A DNA stretch of 64,000 bases from Candidatus Poribacteria bacterium. GTDB taxonomy: Bacteria; Poribacteria; WGA-4E; WGA-3G. Under the pieces are notes generated by a model. The model was given only the letters and a program-made list of their open reading frames with translations. It did no database searches and was not told the origin of the DNA. This document shows, in pieces, positions 37,851 to 47,349 of the stretch; within the stretch, counting starts at the first letter, position 1; the number at the start of each line of letters is the position of its first letter. A program made the translations under genes and the position numbers. The stretch lies in contig JAJDWA010000026.1 of assembly GCA_022825825.1 (NCBI GenBank), forward strand, positions 1-64,000, given 5' to 3'.

Positions 37851-38936
37851 ATGGCAATCCGCGTGGGTATTGTGGGTACGGGTGGTATTTCGCGTGCGCA
37901 CCACAGAGCTTACACCAAAGTAGGTGGATTTGAGATCGTTGCGGTATGCGACATTATTGCTGAAAAAGCGCGACAAGCTGCGGAAAACTGGGGTGTTCCA
38001 AAAAAGAACGTATTCACAAGTTACAACAAGATGCTCGAAATGGATGAGATTGACACGGTGAGCGTTTGTACATATAACCAAGCACATCGACGACCCACCG
38101 TCGCTGCGTTGAATGCGGGTAAACACGTCTTCTGTGAAAAACCGATGGCAGCGACGCTCGCGGATGCAACCGCGATGGTGCGTGCGGCAAAAACGTCGGG
38201 CAAAATACTGCAGATTGGCCTAAAAAGCGCGTTTACACCACAACTTCAATTTGCCAAAAAAGTAATTGATAAAGGCATCCTCGGTGATATTTATTATTCC
38301 GAATCAGCAAGATGTCGGCGGCGCGGGAATCCTGGACGGACGTTTATCTACAAAAAGACAGCGGGGGCTGGCGCAATCGTTGACATCGGTGTCTACAACT
38401 TGCACAACTCGCTTTATGCGATGGGGTATCCGAAACCGGTGCGTGTTTCAGCCATTACCGAAGACTACATCTCAATGCAAAATCCGAGGTTCCGGGATAG
38501 AATGGATGTAGAAGAGTTCGGCGCGGCGTGGGTTCGGTTTGAAAACGGCGGTGTGATGGTATTTAAGATTTCGTGGGCAGTGCATGCAAACTCGCTCGGT
38601 GGCATCTTCTGTCTCGGTAAGAATGCTGGAATATCTTTAGACGGACCGATCGTTTTTGCAGATTCCTATAGCAAAGAACTGCAGAAACTGGTGAAGTCCG
38701 AGGGGCTGACCGCTAAAGCCGATCCGCCAGAGGGAATGACGACTATTACCTTCAAGGGATTTCCGGAGGTTGACGTTTGGGAAGCACAAATGACTGCCTT
38801 CCGTGAAGCAGTCAAAACTGATGCCGTGTCACCGCTGCCCCCCGAAGGTGTTCTACTTACGAATGTGATAATGGATGGTATCTTCCGCTCACATGAAAAT
38901 AGGAAAGAGGTGGCGGTGAAGGTTCCTGATATTTAG
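37851..38936 (+). CDS. Gfo/Idh/MocA family oxidoreductase (paralog copy A)
   Basis: VGIVGTGGISRAHHRAY, NAGKHVFCEKPMAATLADA. Confidence 0.93.
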   Translation: MAIRVGIVGTGGISRAHHRAYTKVGGFEIVAVCDIIAEKARQAAENWGVPKKNVFTSYNKMLEMDEIDTVSVCTYNQAHRRPTVAALNAGKHVFCEKPMAATLADATAMVRAAKTSGKILQIGLKSAFTPQLQFAKKVIDKGILGDIYYSESARCRRRGNPGRTFIYKKTAGAGAIVDIGVYNLHNSLYAMGYPKPVRVSAITEDYISMQNPRFRDRMDVEEFGAAWVRFENGGVMVFKISWAVHANSLGGIFCLGKNAGISLDGPIVFADSYSKELQKLVKSEGLTAKADPPEGMTTITFKGFPEVDVWEAQMTAFREAVKTDAVSPLPPEGVLLTNVIMDGIFRSHENRKEVAVKVPDI

Positions 38937-39061: not shown

Positions 39062-39868
39062 ATGGCGAAGATTGTAGAATTTAAAGATATTCCCTTGAAT
39101 GACCTTGTAATTGGGACAAGCCAGGTTCGCGTAAGCGATGTGAAAAAGGATATTGATGAACTAGCAGAAAGTATCCGCAAAGTAGGACTTTTGGAGCCTA
39201 TACTCGTTGCCCCATTAGAAGATAGTGAAAAGTATGAAATTATACTTGGCCAAAGACGTTTTTTAGCCCATCAGAGGCTTAGCGAAAAAACAATCACGGC
39301 TGGGATACTTGACGAACGTTTGGATGAAATTGACGCAAAGGTCTTGTCGGTAACTGAAAATCTTGTTCGTAGTGACCTAAATCGGAAAGATCTTATTGAC
39401 GTTTGCACATACCTCTATAAGCATTATGCGTCAGTTGGAGCAGTGGCAGAGGAAACAGGTCTTTCCCCTGAAAAAGTGGGTGAATATGTTAAATATGATA
39501 GGTTAATCCCTGAACTTAAAAAAGTAGTTGACAGTGGAGAAGCGAACTTGAAGGCTGCTCTCCGTGCTCAGGATGCTCTCGCTACAGACAGTCCATCAGA
39601 TCCACAAAAAGCCGTAAAACTTGCAAAAGAAATGACTGGCATGATCGGGGCACAACAAGATAAGATCAAAAAGGAACTAATAGACGATCCTGCGGCATCT
39701 GTAGATAAAGCTATAGAAGATGCAAAAAGTGGTGAAAAAGTAACCCAAATTGCTGTTACTCTCGGACATCAAGTTCATAGATCATTAAGACGTTTTGCCA
39801 AAGATGAAGAAATCCCCATAGATGAAGCAGCTGCAATGTTAATTGAAAAAAGTGGATTAGCACATTAG
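39062..39868 (+). CDS. ParB-fold (ParB/Srx N-terminal domain) protein
   Basis: IDELAESIRKVGLLEPILVAP..YEIILGQRRFLAHQRL..ENLVRSDLNRKDLID. Confidence 0.88.
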   Translation: MAKIVEFKDIPLNDLVIGTSQVRVSDVKKDIDELAESIRKVGLLEPILVAPLEDSEKYEIILGQRRFLAHQRLSEKTITAGILDERLDEIDAKVLSVTENLVRSDLNRKDLIDVCTYLYKHYASVGAVAEETGLSPEKVGEYVKYDRLIPELKKVVDSGEANLKAALRAQDALATDSPSDPQKAVKLAKEMTGMIGAQQDKIKKELIDDPAASVDKAIEDAKSGEKVTQIAVTLGHQVHRSLRRFAKDEEIPIDEAAAMLIEKSGLAH

Positions 39869-39973: not shown

Positions 39974-40930
39974 ATGTTTTCCAATACTCTACAAAAATAT
40001 CTCCAAAAGTTTAAAAAGTTGCGTGTAGACAAAGCACACGGAGAAGCTCCTCACAAACCTCTCCTTCTGTTAGCAGTTATTGAACTAATTGAGCAAGGGC
40101 AAATTCAGGAAAATAAGATTTTCCTGTCTCCAGATTTGGCAGAATCCTTCATGAAATATTGGGCAAAAGTAGTGACGGATCGGAGACCTAATATCGCTTT
40201 GCCATTTTTCCACTTAAAAGGCGACGGATTTTGGCACCTACATGCAAACACTGGGTACGAAAATGCATTAAGTGTTGCTAGTCGAATTAGATCGATTTCT
40301 CGCCTTCGTGAAGTGATTGCGTATGCAAGTTTGGATGATAATCTTTTTGCTTTGCTCGTCGCTCCCAATGATCGAGAGGTAATTCGTCAAACTCTTATCC
40401 GTACCTATTTCCCCGATTTCGAGCATGAGATTGAAAGTCTCATTGCAGAAGAACATCAGATTGGCGAGTACAGACAGTTACTGCTTCGACAAGTAGAATA
40501 CGCATTTTCACATCAGCAACCGATAGTCCCAATCCAAACAGATACTCCAATTCGTACTGCGGGTTTTCGCAAAGCAATCATGCGAATGTATGATTACACT
40601 TGTGCTGTATGTCGTTTGCGTATCGTTACAATGGATGGAGAAAGTGCGGCTGACGCTGCCCATATCATGCCGTTTCATATTTCGCAGAATGACGATGTGC
40701 GGAATGGAATATCGTTATGCAAATTGCACCATTGGGCATTTGACAAAGGTTTGCTTTCTTTAAGCAAAAACTATAAAGTGATTGTTTCAGAACTTATGTC
40801 CGATAGGAGACCGACGGAGTGGATGCTTACCGAACTTCGCGATAAGTCTATTCTATTGCCTGAACATGAGCTACTATACCCTGCTCAGGAAGTTTTGGCA
40901 TGGCATCGTGAGGAAGTACTTAGAAAATAA
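39974..40930 (+). CDS. HNH endonuclease, resembling phosphorothioate-DNA-binding (SBD-HNH) restriction enzymes
   Basis: N-terminal HKPLLLLAVIELIEQGQI...RRPNIALPFFHLKGDGFWHL; C-terminal CAVCRLR..AADAAHIMPFH..NGISLCKLHHWAFDKG. Confidence 0.82.
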   Translation: MFSNTLQKYLQKFKKLRVDKAHGEAPHKPLLLLAVIELIEQGQIQENKIFLSPDLAESFMKYWAKVVTDRRPNIALPFFHLKGDGFWHLHANTGYENALSVASRIRSISRLREVIAYASLDDNLFALLVAPNDREVIRQTLIRTYFPDFEHEIESLIAEEHQIGEYRQLLLRQVEYAFSHQQPIVPIQTDTPIRTAGFRKAIMRMYDYTCAVCRLRIVTMDGESAADAAHIMPFHISQNDDVRNGISLCKLHHWAFDKGLLSLSKNYKVIVSELMSDRRPTEWMLTELRDKSILLPEHELLYPAQEVLAWHREEVLRK

Positions 40931-41009: not shown

Positions 41010-41684
41010 TTATGAATCTTGGTCGTTTGATTGTGAAGCAGTAGTCTGATTTCGCCTTAGTTCTTTAGGTAAAAATACATCAATTTCCTCATCTGAAAAT
41101 GTCATATCCTCATTGTACTTCAGTGCTTGTTGTGCTTTCTTATAAGCTTTAGAAGTGGTACTTGGTGCACTGGAATAAACCAAATGGAGCTCATCCATCA
41201 AGGTATCTCTTTCCTGCTGTATAATCTCTGACGATTTTTCTCCAATTGCTATATCTGTGATTAACGACAGATATTTTTCTCGAATAAGCCAAATATTATT
41301 CGCTGCTTGTTTATGCTTTTGGGCAAGCTCAGCTAAATTATAGTCCTTCGTATATAGGGTCAAACCAAGAAGAACTGCTGAAATTGAACTGGCAATGACT
41401 GCACCTACTCTTGCTAAAACGATAAGTTGAGAAATACAACCAACCGTCGTTATTGCAGATAGAAAAATTACCCAGAATTTCATTCTTGACAGGCGTTTTA
41501 GTAGAATATCAGCACATTTTTCATGAGTTTTGTGCGAATAAACAACTCTACCAAAACACTCACGTAACTGTCCTTCAAGTATCTGGCGCGATTCAAGCAA
41601 GTCATTAATTGGGGAATGACGTTCCAAAGATTTCCCTCCATTTTCGCTTAGCAGAATATTCACGTTTTGGTTTAGCTTGTTCAT
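41010..41684 (-). CDS. SLATT-like 2TM effector protein (CBASS-associated)
   Basis: Two TM helices FWVIFLSAITTVGCISQLIVLA / GAVIASSISAVLLGLTLY followed by long helical region; start MNKLNQN chosen inside longer ORF; overlaps upstream CD-NTase gene. Confidence 0.72.
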   Translation of the reverse strand: MNKLNQNVNILLSENGGKSLERHSPINDLLESRQILEGQLRECFGRVVYSHKTHEKCADILLKRLSRMKFWVIFLSAITTVGCISQLIVLARVGAVIASSISAVLLGLTLYTKDYNLAELAQKHKQAANNIWLIREKYLSLITDIAIGEKSSEIIQQERDTLMDELHLVYSSAPSTTSKAYKKAQQALKYNEDMTFSDEEIDVFLPKELRRNQTTASQSNDQDS

Positions 41685-42486
41685 GTTTAATTGCTTCAAG
41701 CGAAATATTGTAACACCTTTTAGCCTTCCATTGGAAAAGACCTTTGCTGTAAACATACTGATTACTGCCTGGAGCGCGCCAGTATACCTTATCTCCTTTT
41801 TGGTTAGCCAGAAAAAGAAAAAAGTCTTTACACATATAATCGTAATAGAAAAAAGATTTATCCTTGTATTTCCAATCGTAGATGAATTGGTAAGCAAGTG
41901 TGTCAATTAAAAGACCGCCCATCGGCACATTCCAATTTGACTTCCATGCTCGCATCATCCTGCATAATGGAACTAAGTTGTTGTTGCTGGTGTTGTCCCT
42001 AATTCTGATAGCCTCAATTTCTGGTTTAGGGTTTGTTAAACCCCAACTCCCACCGCTATTTGTGTTAGGATATTTATAACTACCATATGAGTTTAAAAAG
42101 GCAGGAACGACTTCAAACGTGATACCATCAGCAAAGGAAATTTCAATTACTTGTCCATCTGCACCTATAACTGTAGATGAGTACGTCTCTGTAACGGATT
42201 TTTTTACCGTTTGAAGCAGAGCTGATTGACCATTACCCTGATATTGATCGTACCGCCTGTACATTGAATTGGGGAGTTGAAAAATCATATCAAGATCACT
42301 AAATCCTTGAATCGCAGTATTGCGGCCATACGAACCCACATATAGACTATGTGAGGTATCAGATGTTGTGTTCCAGAAATCTGTATTTAACCGACGGGTT
42401 ATCGCCTTGTAGCGAGTAGAAATAGTCCCTCCATCCTGAACCTGAATGTTTGTGCAAAACGTGCTGAACCAATTTGCTAATCCCAT
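41605..42486 (-). CDS. CD-NTase (SMODS-type cyclic oligonucleotide synthase)
   Basis: GSYGRNTAIQGFSDLDMIFQLP (GS...DxD) and FEVVPAF third acidic position. Confidence 0.85.
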   Translation of the reverse strand: MGLANWFSTFCTNIQVQDGGTISTRYKAITRRLNTDFWNTTSDTSHSLYVGSYGRNTAIQGFSDLDMIFQLPNSMYRRYDQYQGNGQSALLQTVKKSVTETYSSTVIGADGQVIEISFADGITFEVVPAFLNSYGSYKYPNTNSGGSWGLTNPKPEIEAIRIRDNTSNNNLVPLCRMMRAWKSNWNVPMGGLLIDTLAYQFIYDWKYKDKSFFYYDYMCKDFFLFLANQKGDKVYWRAPGSNQYVYSKGLFQWKAKRCYNISLEAIKHEQAKPKREYSAKRKWREIFGTSFPN

Positions 42487-42520
42487 TTGATCCCTCTATG
42501 AATTCAATTCTCAGAATAGT

Positions 42521-44527
42521 TTAGAAGTAACTTTCTTCAATTGTAGTGTGTCCGTCTGATTTATGATACTCTAAATGGAACGTATGTGAGATATAAGGTT
42601 CCATCAATGAATGAAAGAATTCATCAACTTCAGTATCGGTTGAAAGCAAGATCATTTGATGGCTTGCATGCGGAAAATAACGTTCAACAAGAAGTTTTCG
42701 ATGGCTACTATCCAAACGACCAAGCGGGGTATCAAGAATCATCGGAAGCGGTTTACCTGATGTTTTTGCCAATCCCCACAACAGAGCAGTTGTATAAATC
42801 TGCTTTTCACCTGCCGATAATTCTTCTTTTGAAAGCTCGCATCTGTTTGAATCATATAAGGTCACTGCAAACGTATCTGGGTTAATTTCAACCCGGCTAA
42901 TTCGATCTGGTTTGTGTGAAAGTTGGTTAAAACTTTCTACAATTGAATTTCCAAGTGTCACAATTTTTGCTTGTGTGAGCAGGGATGTATACGAAGATAG
43001 AACAGACTTGACCTGGCTTACCTGTTGTTGTCGTTTAATATGTGCTTCACCAAGTTGTTGTGTGTGACGTAGTTTCTCAAGTTTTCTTTCTGCTTCCACC
43101 AATTGGCTGTTCAAGGATCGGATCGTTAAGTCTTGATCTTTTTCCTGCTTGCAAAGTTGGCCAAGGTTCTGATTTAATTTGGAAAGTTTCTCTATCAAAG
43201 GCTTCAATACCTCTTCGTCAGGTGCTTTCTGAAGATATTGTTCTACCTTTTGCAATTCTAATTCCGCATTTTTTAAAGCGTCATTCAATTTTCGAAATTT
43301 TTGAGGAATGTCGTTGAGACAAGTTTTAATCCATTCAAAGAGTTGATCGTATTCAGAGGATGAACGTTCACGTGTTTTCTCAAAGCTCTCTAATTCCTTT
43401 GGAAGTTCAAGTTGTGTCTTCAGTTCTGGAGCAATCTTTGAGTAAACAAATTCTATTTCAGACTCCGAAAAGGAATTATCCCAAAAAGAAGCGGATGTAA
43501 GGTCATTAATAAGCTTAGTGTTTTCTGTTTTCAATACACGATTTTTCTCTTCCCATTGATCGTATTCAATCTCTTTACGAAGTCGCTTTTCTAATCGCAT
43601 TAGTAAATCTGGTACAAGTGCGAACGGGAACAAATTCCCACATAGGTCACGAATTTCATTTTCTAATTTTTCAATTTCAGTAGAGAGTTGCTCCTGTTGA
43701 AGTTTCAAACTCTCTCGTTTTTCTGCGTAACCGCCGCCTTCAGCTGCAATTTGAGATTCTTGTCGGGAAATCTGGGTCTCTAATCTTTCAATTTTAGTTT
43801 GTGTAGATTCTAAGTGTTCAGTTACGTCATTGAGGGATGAGCTAAGATCCGCAATTTCGGATTCTGCAGCCTCAATCTCTTGTTGCAAGGGTTCGGGACT
43901 GTTCTGTTTTGCTAAACGGTTTGCATAGATGCTAAGATCTGATTTCAACCGATCTACAAGGTTTAACCCGAGCAGAGATTTAATTGATTCGGCAAGGAAC
44001 TGATCATGGCTGGAGTCGTCAGTTAATTTCTGTATATCTTCACCATCAAAAAAGAAAAATTGTGATACACCTATTGGAATTAGTTCATTAATATAATCTT
44101 GCCAATATGCTGCATCAAAATCTGCGTTTAACTGGTTGTCTTCGGACACGAAAAAACTTTCTTTTACTGAACGGTGAGTTTTGCCTCGCTGTTGCCAAGC
44201 ACGCTCAACTCGATAATGTTTTTTTTTACCGCCTCGTGCATATTCAAACTCAAGTGAGACGGAAGCGCTATCTAACGGTAACGACGAAGTCGGATTACGG
44301 TGAATCATTGTGGAAAGGTACTCGTAATACTCATTGCGGCTAACCCTTGCACCTAAGGAACGTTTGCCGTAGAGACAAAGGCGAACTGCATCAAGCAGTG
44401 TTGTTTTACCGGCACCATTCATCCCACCAATTAAGATGACAGGGCCTGTACCGTTCGGTGTCATCTGAATATTATGTGATTCGCGAAATAAGCCGAAATT
44501 GTTGAGGGAGAGTTTGTGGAGAATCAT
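42521..44527 (-). CDS. dndD: DNA phosphorothioation system ATPase DndD
   Basis: MILHKLSLNNFGLF..GGMNGAGKTTLLDAVRLCLYGKR, FFFFDGEDIQKL, coiled-coil, LSAGEKQIYTTALLWGLA, PMILDTPLGRLD. Confidence 0.9.
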   Translation of the reverse strand: MILHKLSLNNFGLFRESHNIQMTPNGTGPVILIGGMNGAGKTTLLDAVRLCLYGKRSLGARVSRNEYYEYLSTMIHRNPTSSLPLDSASVSLEFEYARGGKKKHYRVERAWQQRGKTHRSVKESFFVSEDNQLNADFDAAYWQDYINELIPIGVSQFFFFDGEDIQKLTDDSSHDQFLAESIKSLLGLNLVDRLKSDLSIYANRLAKQNSPEPLQQEIEAAESEIADLSSSLNDVTEHLESTQTKIERLETQISRQESQIAAEGGGYAEKRESLKLQQEQLSTEIEKLENEIRDLCGNLFPFALVPDLLMRLEKRLRKEIEYDQWEEKNRVLKTENTKLINDLTSASFWDNSFSESEIEFVYSKIAPELKTQLELPKELESFEKTRERSSSEYDQLFEWIKTCLNDIPQKFRKLNDALKNAELELQKVEQYLQKAPDEEVLKPLIEKLSKLNQNLGQLCKQEKDQDLTIRSLNSQLVEAERKLEKLRHTQQLGEAHIKRQQQVSQVKSVLSSYTSLLTQAKIVTLGNSIVESFNQLSHKPDRISRVEINPDTFAVTLYDSNRCELSKEELSAGEKQIYTTALLWGLAKTSGKPLPMILDTPLGRLDSSHRKLLVERYFPHASHQMILLSTDTEVDEFFHSLMEPYISHTFHLEYHKSDGHTTIEESYF

Positions 44528-44609
44528 TGTTGCCCACTATCACGTTTAGGTTTCTATTCCAAATTGGTGCGATTAAAAATTTATGGAGAATCATTGTTGC
44601 CCACTATCA
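44517..44609. repeat. 26-bp direct repeat (TGGAGAATCATTGTTGCCCACTATCA) x2, 67-bp period, at dndC/dndD junction
   Basis: Copies at 44517-44542 and 44584-44609, identical. Confidence 0.9.
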
Positions 44610-45994
44610 GGCAGACTGTCGCGTACTTCTTTTTCTGAACGCCAATCCTCCTGGAAAATGGCATCAATTCGGGATTGGATTCCAGCGCGCCGACTCATTC
44701 CATCCATTTGACGCTCGGTATCTAACAATTTTGCTACAAGCGTAACAGGGACTCCATTTTCACTACAGATTTTAGATAATAGTTCCTTGTCTGATGCCGT
44801 AAAAGCAGTTGTATCGTCAACAACCCATTCGCGCTCACCAACAACATCACTATAAATCTGCGGTACCGCATCTTCCCAATCTTGTCGTTCTGTTCTCCAA
44901 ATTTTGCGAATTTCTTCAAGTTCGTCGTCAGTGATAAGTTTAATTTCGGGGTCAGGCCCTTCTTTGCGAACCTGTTCTTGTGTTTCAAGAAGTTTTTCTA
45001 ACAGTTCTTGGCAGAATTTCAGCGTATAGGGCCCGTGAATAAGTTTATTATTTAAGATAGTAACTTGACCGTTACTTCGCCTATGTTCACGGATTTTAGG
45101 TTTCTCTTCAGGGTTTTGAGTGTCAGCAAGGAAGTCACGGAACTCAAGTAGAGGCAACATCCAATCTTCTCCACTATCAATAAGCCCTTCCATTGCTTTA
45201 TCTTTTGTAACCACGGTACAGGTCCAACACCCAAAGCGACTGTTTCCACAAGACGGAGTCGTTTCATCAACAACAAGTGGACATTCACCTTGAGCATTTG
45301 AGTTTCGATAGAGGGTGACAAGTTCCTTATTATCGTTGTTCCATGGTGAAGGAACATTCAATAAATAGAACCAAACATCGTTTAAACTGAAATCAACAAT
45401 AGGTGCGTAGACAAAAGCATTCGGTAAAGTGTTATGTCGTAAAAGCAATGAATTCTGTATACTGTGCATGCTTAAGACTTGGTCTCGGGTAGTACTTTCC
45501 CCCTTACGGACCCCAAGTACCATAATAACTTCACCATGTTCAGCAACTCTGTCCAAGATAAACCGATTGGCAGGTTTGATCTTCATGCGATCAGTACACC
45601 ATCTAAATTTGCTGTAAGGTGCGGGGTAACCTTTACCAATAAGATTAACCCAAAACGTATCTTCTATTTTCGGGCGGACAATATCTGTCTGAAATGGCAT
45701 TTTTTCTTTGCGTGCAACTCTTTCGAGACGTTCAAGGGTACTTGTAATATAACCAACGATCACTGGTGTTTCTACGAGGGTATCGGATGAAATTACATAG
45801 ACAGGATACTTCCGATCTTCTGGTGGCAACTCAGCGAGGGCATACCAAACCAGTTGTAATGCAGCGGTAGAATCTTTTCCTCCACTATATCCAATTACCC
45901 AAGGTCGCGCATTCTTGAGATAAACTTCTTGAATCTCGCGGTGGATATCATTAGGTGTGCGTGAATCAAAGATGCTGTATGCGGTTTCTGCCAT
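44591..45994 (-). CDS. dndC: DNA phosphorothioation sulfurtransferase DndC (PAPS-reductase-like)
   Basis: RPWVIGYSGGKDSTAALQLVW, CTDRMKIKPANRFI, GVRKGESTTR, Cys cluster CGNSRFGCWTC. Confidence 0.93.
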   Translation of the reverse strand: MAETAYSIFDSRTPNDIHREIQEVYLKNARPWVIGYSGGKDSTAALQLVWYALAELPPEDRKYPVYVISSDTLVETPVIVGYITSTLERLERVARKEKMPFQTDIVRPKIEDTFWVNLIGKGYPAPYSKFRWCTDRMKIKPANRFILDRVAEHGEVIMVLGVRKGESTTRDQVLSMHSIQNSLLLRHNTLPNAFVYAPIVDFSLNDVWFYLLNVPSPWNNDNKELVTLYRNSNAQGECPLVVDETTPSCGNSRFGCWTCTVVTKDKAMEGLIDSGEDWMLPLLEFRDFLADTQNPEEKPKIREHRRSNGQVTILNNKLIHGPYTLKFCQELLEKLLETQEQVRKEGPDPEIKLITDDELEEIRKIWRTERQDWEDAVPQIYSDVVGEREWVVDDTTAFTASDKELLSKICSENGVPVTLVAKLLDTERQMDGMSRRAGIQSRIDAIFQEDWRSEKEVRDSLPDSGQQ

Positions 45995-46263
45995 AATACA
46001 TGCTCCGTCCAGTCCAACAAATGTTGGAATAACATATAACGCTTCCATTTTATTGTAAGTACATAAAGTATAACATATATATACAATTTTTTTACATGTT
46101 TTTTTTAAGTTTTATTTTGGCATGTTTCCTAACCACCAGGATGGTGAATTTCTGTATAAAATGAATACCAAATGGCCTCTACATTTTTTCCTTGCATTTC
46201 CAACTGAATATCGTCTAAACTAATACATCAATACAATTGCATTTCTCATAAGGAGACAACAAC

Positions 46264-47349
46264 ATGGCAGTACGAGTAGGTATTATTGGTACAGGTGGCA
46301 TTTCACGTGCCCACCGGGGTACCTATGAAAAAGTAGGCGGTTTTGAGATTGTCGCTGTCTGCGACATTATCAAAAGTAAGGCAAACCAAGCTGCTGAAGA
46401 GTGGGGTGTCCCAAAAAAGAACGCCTTTTCAAGTTACAACAAGATGCTTGAGATGGATGATCTTGATGCTGTGAGCGTCTGTACTTACAATCAGGGACAT
46501 CGGAGGCCAACGGTTGCGGCATTGAACGCCGGTAAACACGTCCTCTGTGAAAAACCGATGGCAGCAACGCTTTCAGATGCAACTGCGATGGTACAGGCAG
46601 CAAAGGAATCAGGTAAAATCTTACAAATCGGTCTCAATCCCACGTTTGATCCGAGGCTCCAATTCGCGAGGAAACTGATTGACGAAGGATTTCTTGGTGA
46701 TATCTATTATTCTGAATCTGCCGGGTGCAGACGGCGCGGGAATCCGGGACATACGTTCATCTACAAAAAGACAGCGGGGGCGGGGGCAACCGTTGATATA
46801 GGTGTCTACAATATGCACAGATCGCTATTTGCGATGGGGTATCCGAAACCGGTGCGTGTCTCTGCTATTACTGAAGACTACATATCAATGCAGGATCCGA
46901 GGTTCCAAGGTAAAATGGATGTGGAAGAGTTCGGCGCGGCGTGGGTTCGGTTTGAAAATGGCGGTGTGATGGTATTTAAGATTTCGTGGGCAGTGCATGC
47001 AAACTCGCTCGGTGGCAATTTTCATCTCGGTCAAAAAGCAGGGATTTCTTTGGATGGACCGGTTATTTTCGCAGATGCATACACAGGCGATCTCAAGAAG
47101 TTTGTCGAATCAGAGGGACTAACAGCGGAACCTGATCCACCGGAAGGTATGACGACTATCCAGCTATCAGGATTCCCAGCATCTGATAACTGGGCGAAAC
47201 AGATGATCGCTTTCCGTGAAGCCGTCAAAGCAGACGCACCGTCACCGATACCACCGGAAGGTGTACTCCTCACGAATGTGATAATGGATGGTATCTTCCG
47301 CTCACATGAAAGTAAGAAAGAGGTGGCGGTAAGAGTTCCTGAGATTTAG
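46264..47349 (+). CDS. Gfo/Idh/MocA family oxidoreductase (paralog copy B)
   Basis: VGIIGTGGISRAHRGTY, NAGKHVLCEKPMAATLSDA; same length (361 aa) as copy A. Confidence 0.93.
   Translation: MAVRVGIIGTGGISRAHRGTYEKVGGFEIVAVCDIIKSKANQAAEEWGVPKKNAFSSYNKMLEMDDLDAVSVCTYNQGHRRPTVAALNAGKHVLCEKPMAATLSDATAMVQAAKESGKILQIGLNPTFDPRLQFARKLIDEGFLGDIYYSESAGCRRRGNPGHTFIYKKTAGAGATVDIGVYNMHRSLFAMGYPKPVRVSAITEDYISMQDPRFQGKMDVEEFGAAWVRFENGGVMVFKISWAVHANSLGGNFHLGQKAGISLDGPVIFADAYTGDLKKFVESEGLTAEPDPPEGMTTIQLSGFPASDNWAKQMIAFREAVKADAPSPIPPEGVLLTNVIMDGIFRSHESKKEVAVRVPEI

Follow-up and report, generated by a model that had tools for sequence, protein, structure and literature searches.

A putative phosphorothioate-dependent SBD-HNH endonuclease adjoins a Dnd writer lacking dndE in Poribacteria

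HNH-A, a 318-residue protein encoded in a Poribacterial genomic island, is probably a phosphorothioate (PT)-dependent, type IV-like restriction endonuclease whose neighbour is a Dnd writer from which dndE has been lost and which probably makes no PT. The window analysed is a 64,000-nucleotide stretch of contig JAJDWA010000026.1 from a sponge-associated Candidatus Poribacteria bacterium (GCA_022825825.1). This reading is based on the fold and pocket of the sulfur-binding domain (SBD), the intact HNH residues, the absence of dndE from the assembly, a recurrent exclusion between HNH-A and dndE, and dndE stubs that survive in related loci. The absence of dndE is likely the simple answer to the self-conflict feared for a PT cutter beside a PT writer. 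As a protein, HNH-A belongs, in diverged form, to a kind of enzyme already known. What appears new, as far as was found in the available passages of the literature, is the repeated natural disarming of the Dnd writer at dndE wherever HNH-A adjoins it in Poribacteria.

Locus organisation

The island lies between two Gfo/Idh/MocA paralogs in an assembly of 75 contigs that is 84% complete. It carries dndC, dndD, a CD-NTase gene and a SLATT_4 gene on the minus strand and the ParB_N and HNH-A genes on the plus strand. HNH-A is convergent with the dnd operon and lies outside it. The preliminary description of this DNA had placed an HNH nuclease beside dndCD, and this arrangement stands, as both dnd genes score above the cut-offs of their families. 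The features are as follows.

37851..38936, plus strand: Gfo/Idh/MocA dehydrogenase, left flank of the island (Pfam, synteny)
39062..39868, plus strand: ParB_N protein, probable leftover of an SNF2-ParB-HTH_ParB-339 aa module (Pfam; module present in dndE-type loci)
39974..40930, plus strand: HNH-A, SBD-HNH protein of 318 aa, putative PT-dependent endonuclease (Pfam, NCBIfam, PDB and fold matches)
39989..40408, plus strand: sulfur-binding domain of HNH-A, aa 6-145 (8h0l match, fold, pocket residues)
40601..40762, plus strand: HNH nuclease domain of HNH-A, aa 210-263 (PF13391, conservation)
41010..41690, minus strand: SLATT_4 2TM effector, start approximate (PF18186, 8.8e-69)
41605..42486, minus strand: CBASS-type CD-NTase (SMODS; PF18144, 1.5e-53; PADLOC cyclase, 2e-138)
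42487..42520, minus strand: junction at the expected start of dndE, which is absent, the CD-NTase starting directly (no PF08870 in the assembly; frames read)
42521..44527, minus strand: dndD, intact (TIGR03185, 552 bits, cut-off 246)
44591..46048, minus strand: dndC, intact (TIGR03183, 578 bits, cut-off 290)
46264..47349, plus strand: Gfo/Idh/MocA dehydrogenase paralog, 80% identical to the left one, right flank of the island (Pfam, synteny)

Between dndC and dndD, at 44528-44590, the end of dndC and the start of dndD (GATAGTGGGCAACAATGATTCTCCA) are duplicated. Directly downstream of dndD, positions 41010-42486 hold a complete-looking short CBASS operon with overlapping ORFs, in which both the CD-NTase and its SLATT_4 effector are present.

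Domains, fold and sulfur pocket of HNH-A

The C-terminal residues 210-263 of HNH-A match the HNH_2 family (PF13391, E 1.8e-11), bearing out its description as an HNH-type nuclease. The HNH residues C210, C213, H230, N244, C249, H252, and H253 are intact, as they are in every Dnd-linked HNH-A copy long enough to read. Nearly the whole protein (aa 11-317) matches NF045808, 'phosphorothioated DNA-binding restriction endonuclease', with an E of 2.1e-41. The score of 141.9 bits is below the curated cut-off of 180 bits, and relatives scored singly reach 133-146 bits. HNH-A is therefore named here a diverged SBD-HNH protein rather than a member of NF045808 as curated. A Pfam search of the protein returned no match to DUF262 or DUF1524.

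The N-terminus had been likened to the SBD of ScoMcrA-type enzymes, and this resemblance is found at the level of both sequence and fold. Residues 6-145 match PDB 8h0l, the SBDHga1 domain crystallised with PT DNA, with an E of 3.7e-22. A profile of 22 relatives also matches the ScoMcrA SBD (5zmo, E 8.6e-6), and the motifs quoted in the preliminary description are present. An AlphaFold2 model of HNH-A (pLDDT 84.6) has 8h0l_B as its best structural match (E 1.3e-9, probability 1.00, TM by target 0.81), followed by the SBDs of SprMcrA and ScoMcrA.

Alignment to the ScoMcrA SBD, which had been proposed as a check on the sulfur pocket, shows that the pocket is conserved. Residues H116, R117, and P165 line the pocket of ScoMcrA, where R117Q reduced PT binding (PMC6224610), and they align to H27, K28, and P77 of HNH-A. 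The remaining pocket residues of the window copy, L76 and H80, correspond to Y164 and A168 of ScoMcrA and are the same in SBDHga1, to whose pocket that of the window copy is identical. Across the HNH-A family P77 and F78 are invariant; K28 is replaced by Q in several Poribacterial copies, and some family members have N or Y in place of H27. At seven loci (L066, L068, L069, L094, L100, L103, and L104) HNH-A paralogs stand in tandem pairs with differing pockets (H/N/Y27, K/Q28), which suggests different specificities within the pairs.

A Dnd writer without dndE

No PF08870 match to DndE was found anywhere in the 84% complete assembly, and reading of the frames after dndD in the window locus revealed none. 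A dndE remnant was considered and rejected, as only a shared GAATTCATA follows dndD, too short to count. Replacement of dndE by another small gene was likewise rejected, with no ORF common to the interval between dndD and HNH-A across loci. Since dndE is essential for PT in S. lividans (PMC2653506), the writer in the window probably makes no PT. The preliminary description had posed the pairing as either self-conflict or new logic. A clash with a working Dnd writer would indeed be a problem, but nothing here supports a need for new logic, as dndE is missing.

PF08870 matches occur in 17 of the 86 genomes of the phylum. Fifteen are intact dndE genes, all adjoining an orthologous dndC; one is truncated (G081) and one lies in a distantly related Dnd-like set (G079).

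Mutual exclusion of HNH-A and dndE

HNH-A, dndC, dndD, and dndE were mapped in the 86 genomes, giving 26 readable orthologous dndC loci. Fifteen of these have dndE and no HNH-A, while the other 11 have HNH-A and no intact dndE (Fisher p = 1.3e-7). The same exclusion is seen genome-wide. Intact HNH-A is found in 0/15 genomes with this dndCDE type versus 41/55 others from the same three families (p 1.1e-7); a truncated copy in G032 is the sole HNH-A among the 15. Most of the sampled genomes are MAGs, with G030 (2 contigs) and G081 (1 contig) nearly closed. Two controls bear on the source of this pattern. A second SBD-HNH family, HNH-B, occurs together with dndE in 10 of the 15 genomes, and 34 genomes combine HNH-A with sspD, a gene of the Ssp writer. 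The exclusion is therefore explained neither by assembly quality nor by a property of SBD-HNH proteins in general.

The genome G079 sets a boundary to the rule. It carries intact HNH-A copies on one contig and the distant Dnd-like set on another, indicating that the exclusion covers the orthologous dndCDE type and not every Dnd relative. Marks placed in a different sequence context might explain this pairing. The Dnd-like operon of G079 (L189 3900-10674, G079:C72) encodes a 691-aa SMC-like ATPase and a 388-aa DndC (41% identical). Of its two further ORFs, one of 508 aa matches DndE at its N-terminus, and one of 594 aa begins in a DUF262-like manner and is a possible DndI/SspE-type effector.

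Probable repeated loss of dndE

The switch between dndE and HNH-A has occurred many times. On supported branches there are at least six state changes on the DndC tree and five on the DndD tree. Independent contrasts run in the expected opposite direction in 6/6 pairs, with a sign test that is barely significant on these supported branches (p 0.031); the best tree without a support filter gives nine independent pairs. The E-less state is found at the tips of the DndC and DndD trees rather than in deep clades.

Traces of the lost gene remain. In five HNH-type loci a dndE stub, still readable as dndE, directly follows dndD, with about 10-14 codons in G043, 15 in G064, 18 in G066, 20 in G030, and 73 in G081. 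Three further HNH-type loci (G051, G067, and G075) lack dndD as well, dndC being followed by a dndD stub of 20-24 codons and then HNH-A. Thus dndC and dndD are both intact in 8/11 HNH-A loci with dndC, and dndD is lost in 0/15 dndE loci. The deletions are always on the HNH side of the dnd operon. Relaxed selection on dndC and dndD was not detected, as N/S of the dndE-less lineages is no higher than that of their dndE-carrying sisters. This may reflect recent losses or a retained role for DndCD; recent loss is the preferred reading because the stubs can still be read as dndE and the E-less loci fall at the tree tips.

Neighbouring modules

PbeA and PbeC are partner genes of DndCDE-type writers. 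They accompany dndE in 9/15 loci and are found in 0/11 of the others (p 0.0024). In the cassette of DndB and a GIY-YIG nuclease, HNH-A is present at nine loci without dndE and absent from the two with dndE. The cassette of GIY-YIG nuclease, DndB (PF14072), and HNH-A, in the order c15-c14-HNH, is also seen in genomes without dndCDE (L088, L089, L094, L098, and L100). A reading of c14 and c15 as a methylase and Vsr was rejected, as they are DndB and GIY-YIG. The idea that HNH-A serves as R gene in a methyltransferase-based restriction-modification system was also rejected, since the methyltransferase-like gene c70, recognised by its sequence, lies close to only two relatives (L092 and L096). No shared mobile cassette end was seen downstream of HNH-A.

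The preliminary description allowed that the nuclease may require the ParB-like partner or the CBASS signal, and the distribution of these genes makes both unlikely. The ParB ortholog is present in seven genomes, and in all but that of the window it stands in a dndE-type locus without HNH-A. At such loci it is part of a module of an SNF2 helicase, ParB_N, HTH_ParB, and a 339-aa protein for which no Pfam match was found (L083 5398-9389, L070, and L075), with parts of the module in L077, L080, and L084. The ParB gene of the window is probably the last survivor of this module. CD-NTase and SLATT genes occur in 3/11 loci with HNH-A and dnd and were not found beside HNH-A in the Dnd-free loci examined, indicating no constant link.

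HNH-B and relatives beyond Poribacteria

HNH-B proteins are true NF045808 members in Poribacteria (306-361 bits) and are often found beside ssp genes. Of the 34 Poribacterial genomes with this canonical EcoWI-like SBD-HNH type, 25 have it no more than 10 kb from sspD. At four loci (L181 279-8268, L178 648-5949, L183 4793-10593, and L185 4135-9803) it is arranged with sspB, sspC, and sspD as in an operon. This puts a nuclease of the PT-dependent type inside a PT-writer locus, possibly in place of SspE. In some genomes HNH-B is followed by a TIR protein, including that of the window (copy L099 7193-8137), which is without sspD. EcoWI itself occurs in 236/5426 E. coli genomes.

Plasmids of cyanobacteria and Chloroflexota carry relatives of HNH-A at 35–40% identity, as does Herpetosiphon. 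On two Picosynechococcus plasmids the dndC near the HNH gene is without its 5' part, which fits the exclusion. A Candidatus Chlorohelix plasmid breaks it. There a 36%-identical homolog lies convergently to a full dndB-C-D-E set and a second dndB (L190 8918-14920). Its DndE is a genuine PF08870 protein, and H27 of the pocket is Y in the HNH homolog. The rule thus holds strongly within Poribacteria without being universal.

Proposed explanation and its alternatives

From these observations we infer PT binding, DNA cleavage, toxicity and an order of events. The SBD of HNH-A would bind the Rp sulfur and the HNH domain would cut nearby DNA. Its standing function would be to attack PT-marked DNA entering from Dnd-positive relatives, and it would kill cells with a working Dnd writer. 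Where the nuclease and the writer met in one locus, the survivors would be those that lost dndE. As loci were sampled by dndC, the subsequent order is a reconstruction in which dndD would erode next and then dndC. The requirement of dndE for PT and the incompatibility of SBD-HNH enzymes with dndA-E are carried over by analogy from published studies of other systems. In S. coelicolor, ScoMcrA proved incompatible with dndA-E, and PT-free exconjugants had mutated dnd genes (PMC3009677). One such exconjugant had a dndE frameshift, and the plasmid lacking dndE escaped restriction (PMC3009677). Taken together, this suggests that the conflict has been settled repeatedly by breaking the writer. Protective binding of PT by the nuclease, which the preliminary description had also raised, is rejected on the distribution of HNH-A and dndE, as such binding would be expected to place HNH-A alongside a complete writer, the opposite of the pattern observed. 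It is barely conceivable that PT shields the host from HNH-A by restriction-modification or DndI-like logic. Known PT-linked nucleases, DndFGH and DndI, do spare PT-marked self DNA (PMC11662687), but HNH-A occurs in settings that lack the orthologous writer or have it only in part, opposite to what such logic predicts, and neither a DUF262 nor a DUF1524 domain was found in it.

The exclusion may instead stem from turnover of a defence hotspot without any toxicity, with HNH-A and dndE-side modules alternating in one slot and recombination from the HNH side removing dndE as the outermost gene of the operon. HNH-A and dnd do share one slot, which adjoins the Gfo/Idh genes in one family and lies between c42 and c43 in a second, several breakpoints lie near gene starts, and all deletions are on the side this account expects. 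Such recombination could be the source of part of the pattern. As a full account it is unlikely, as dndE-type loci accept many other modules, including the DndB/GIY-YIG cassette minus HNH, the breakpoints fall inside or before dndE every time and never beyond it, and G081 keeps its 73 dndE codons with other genes between the stub and HNH-A. That the SBD has lost sulfur specificity, leaving an ordinary sequence-specific or relaxed nuclease and an exclusion of other cause, is likewise unlikely. The sub-threshold NF045808 score, the substitutions at positions 27 and 28, and the nearby c70 gene in two relatives would fit, but the invariant P77 and F78, the SBDHga1-type pocket of the window copy, and an exclusion specific to the PT writer gene dndE do not. 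It is improbable, too, that DndC and DndD work without DndE, with DNA binding or nicking provided by HNH-A or some other factor. Purifying selection on intact dndC and dndD in most of the HNH-A loci, at the level of their dndE-carrying sisters, is consistent with such an E-less PT system, in which the convergently encoded SBD-HNH protein would perform DNA recognition or nicking through its SBD. Against it stand the additional loss of dndD restricted to HNH-A loci, the tip placement of the E-less state, the lack of a common replacement gene, the position of HNH-A outside the operon, and the essential role of dndE in S. lividans. A PT-dependent HNH-A beside a disarmed writer thus remains the favoured explanation.

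This bears on a wider question. According to PMC7461809, fewer than 3.6% of PT-cutting enzymes lie near dnd genes; that study lists possible reasons, including a mutated dnd cluster, while leaving open why PT cutters stand beside PT-writer genes at all. Nucleases linked to dnd, SBD-SRA-HNH proteins included, are surveyed in PMC10853773. The HNH-A/dndE exclusion is not reported in the passages available from either paper. Poribacteria offer a replicated natural case that points to one answer, in which the dndE of the writer is lost and its stubs are still visible. With one chromosomal slot holding a PT writer in some relatives and a PT cutter in others, gene exchange between the groups would be one-sided.

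Comparison with known systems

SBDHga1 (8h0l) is one of the closest known counterparts, sharing its fold and the pocket pattern H-K ... L-P-x-x-H with HNH-A, although the two are only about 35% identical; a literature search found no papers on SBDHga. EcoWI-like SBD-HNH endonucleases (NF045808) share the SBD-then-HNH order, a length of about 300 aa, and the catalytic residues, but are 28–32% identical to HNH-A, which scores below their cut-off. ScoMcrA and SprMcrA share the SBD fold. ScoMcrA has an SRA domain that HNH-A lacks, and its pocket tyrosine is a leucine in HNH-A. DndI and SspE are, like HNH-A, HNH nucleases tied to PT systems; however, they combine DUF262 with DUF1524 and work with a PT-making host, and neither applies to HNH-A. 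DndCDE-PbeABCD is represented in the window by orthologs of dndC and dndD; dndE and the Pbe genes are absent from this locus, whereas relatives carry intact versions with PbeA and PbeC.
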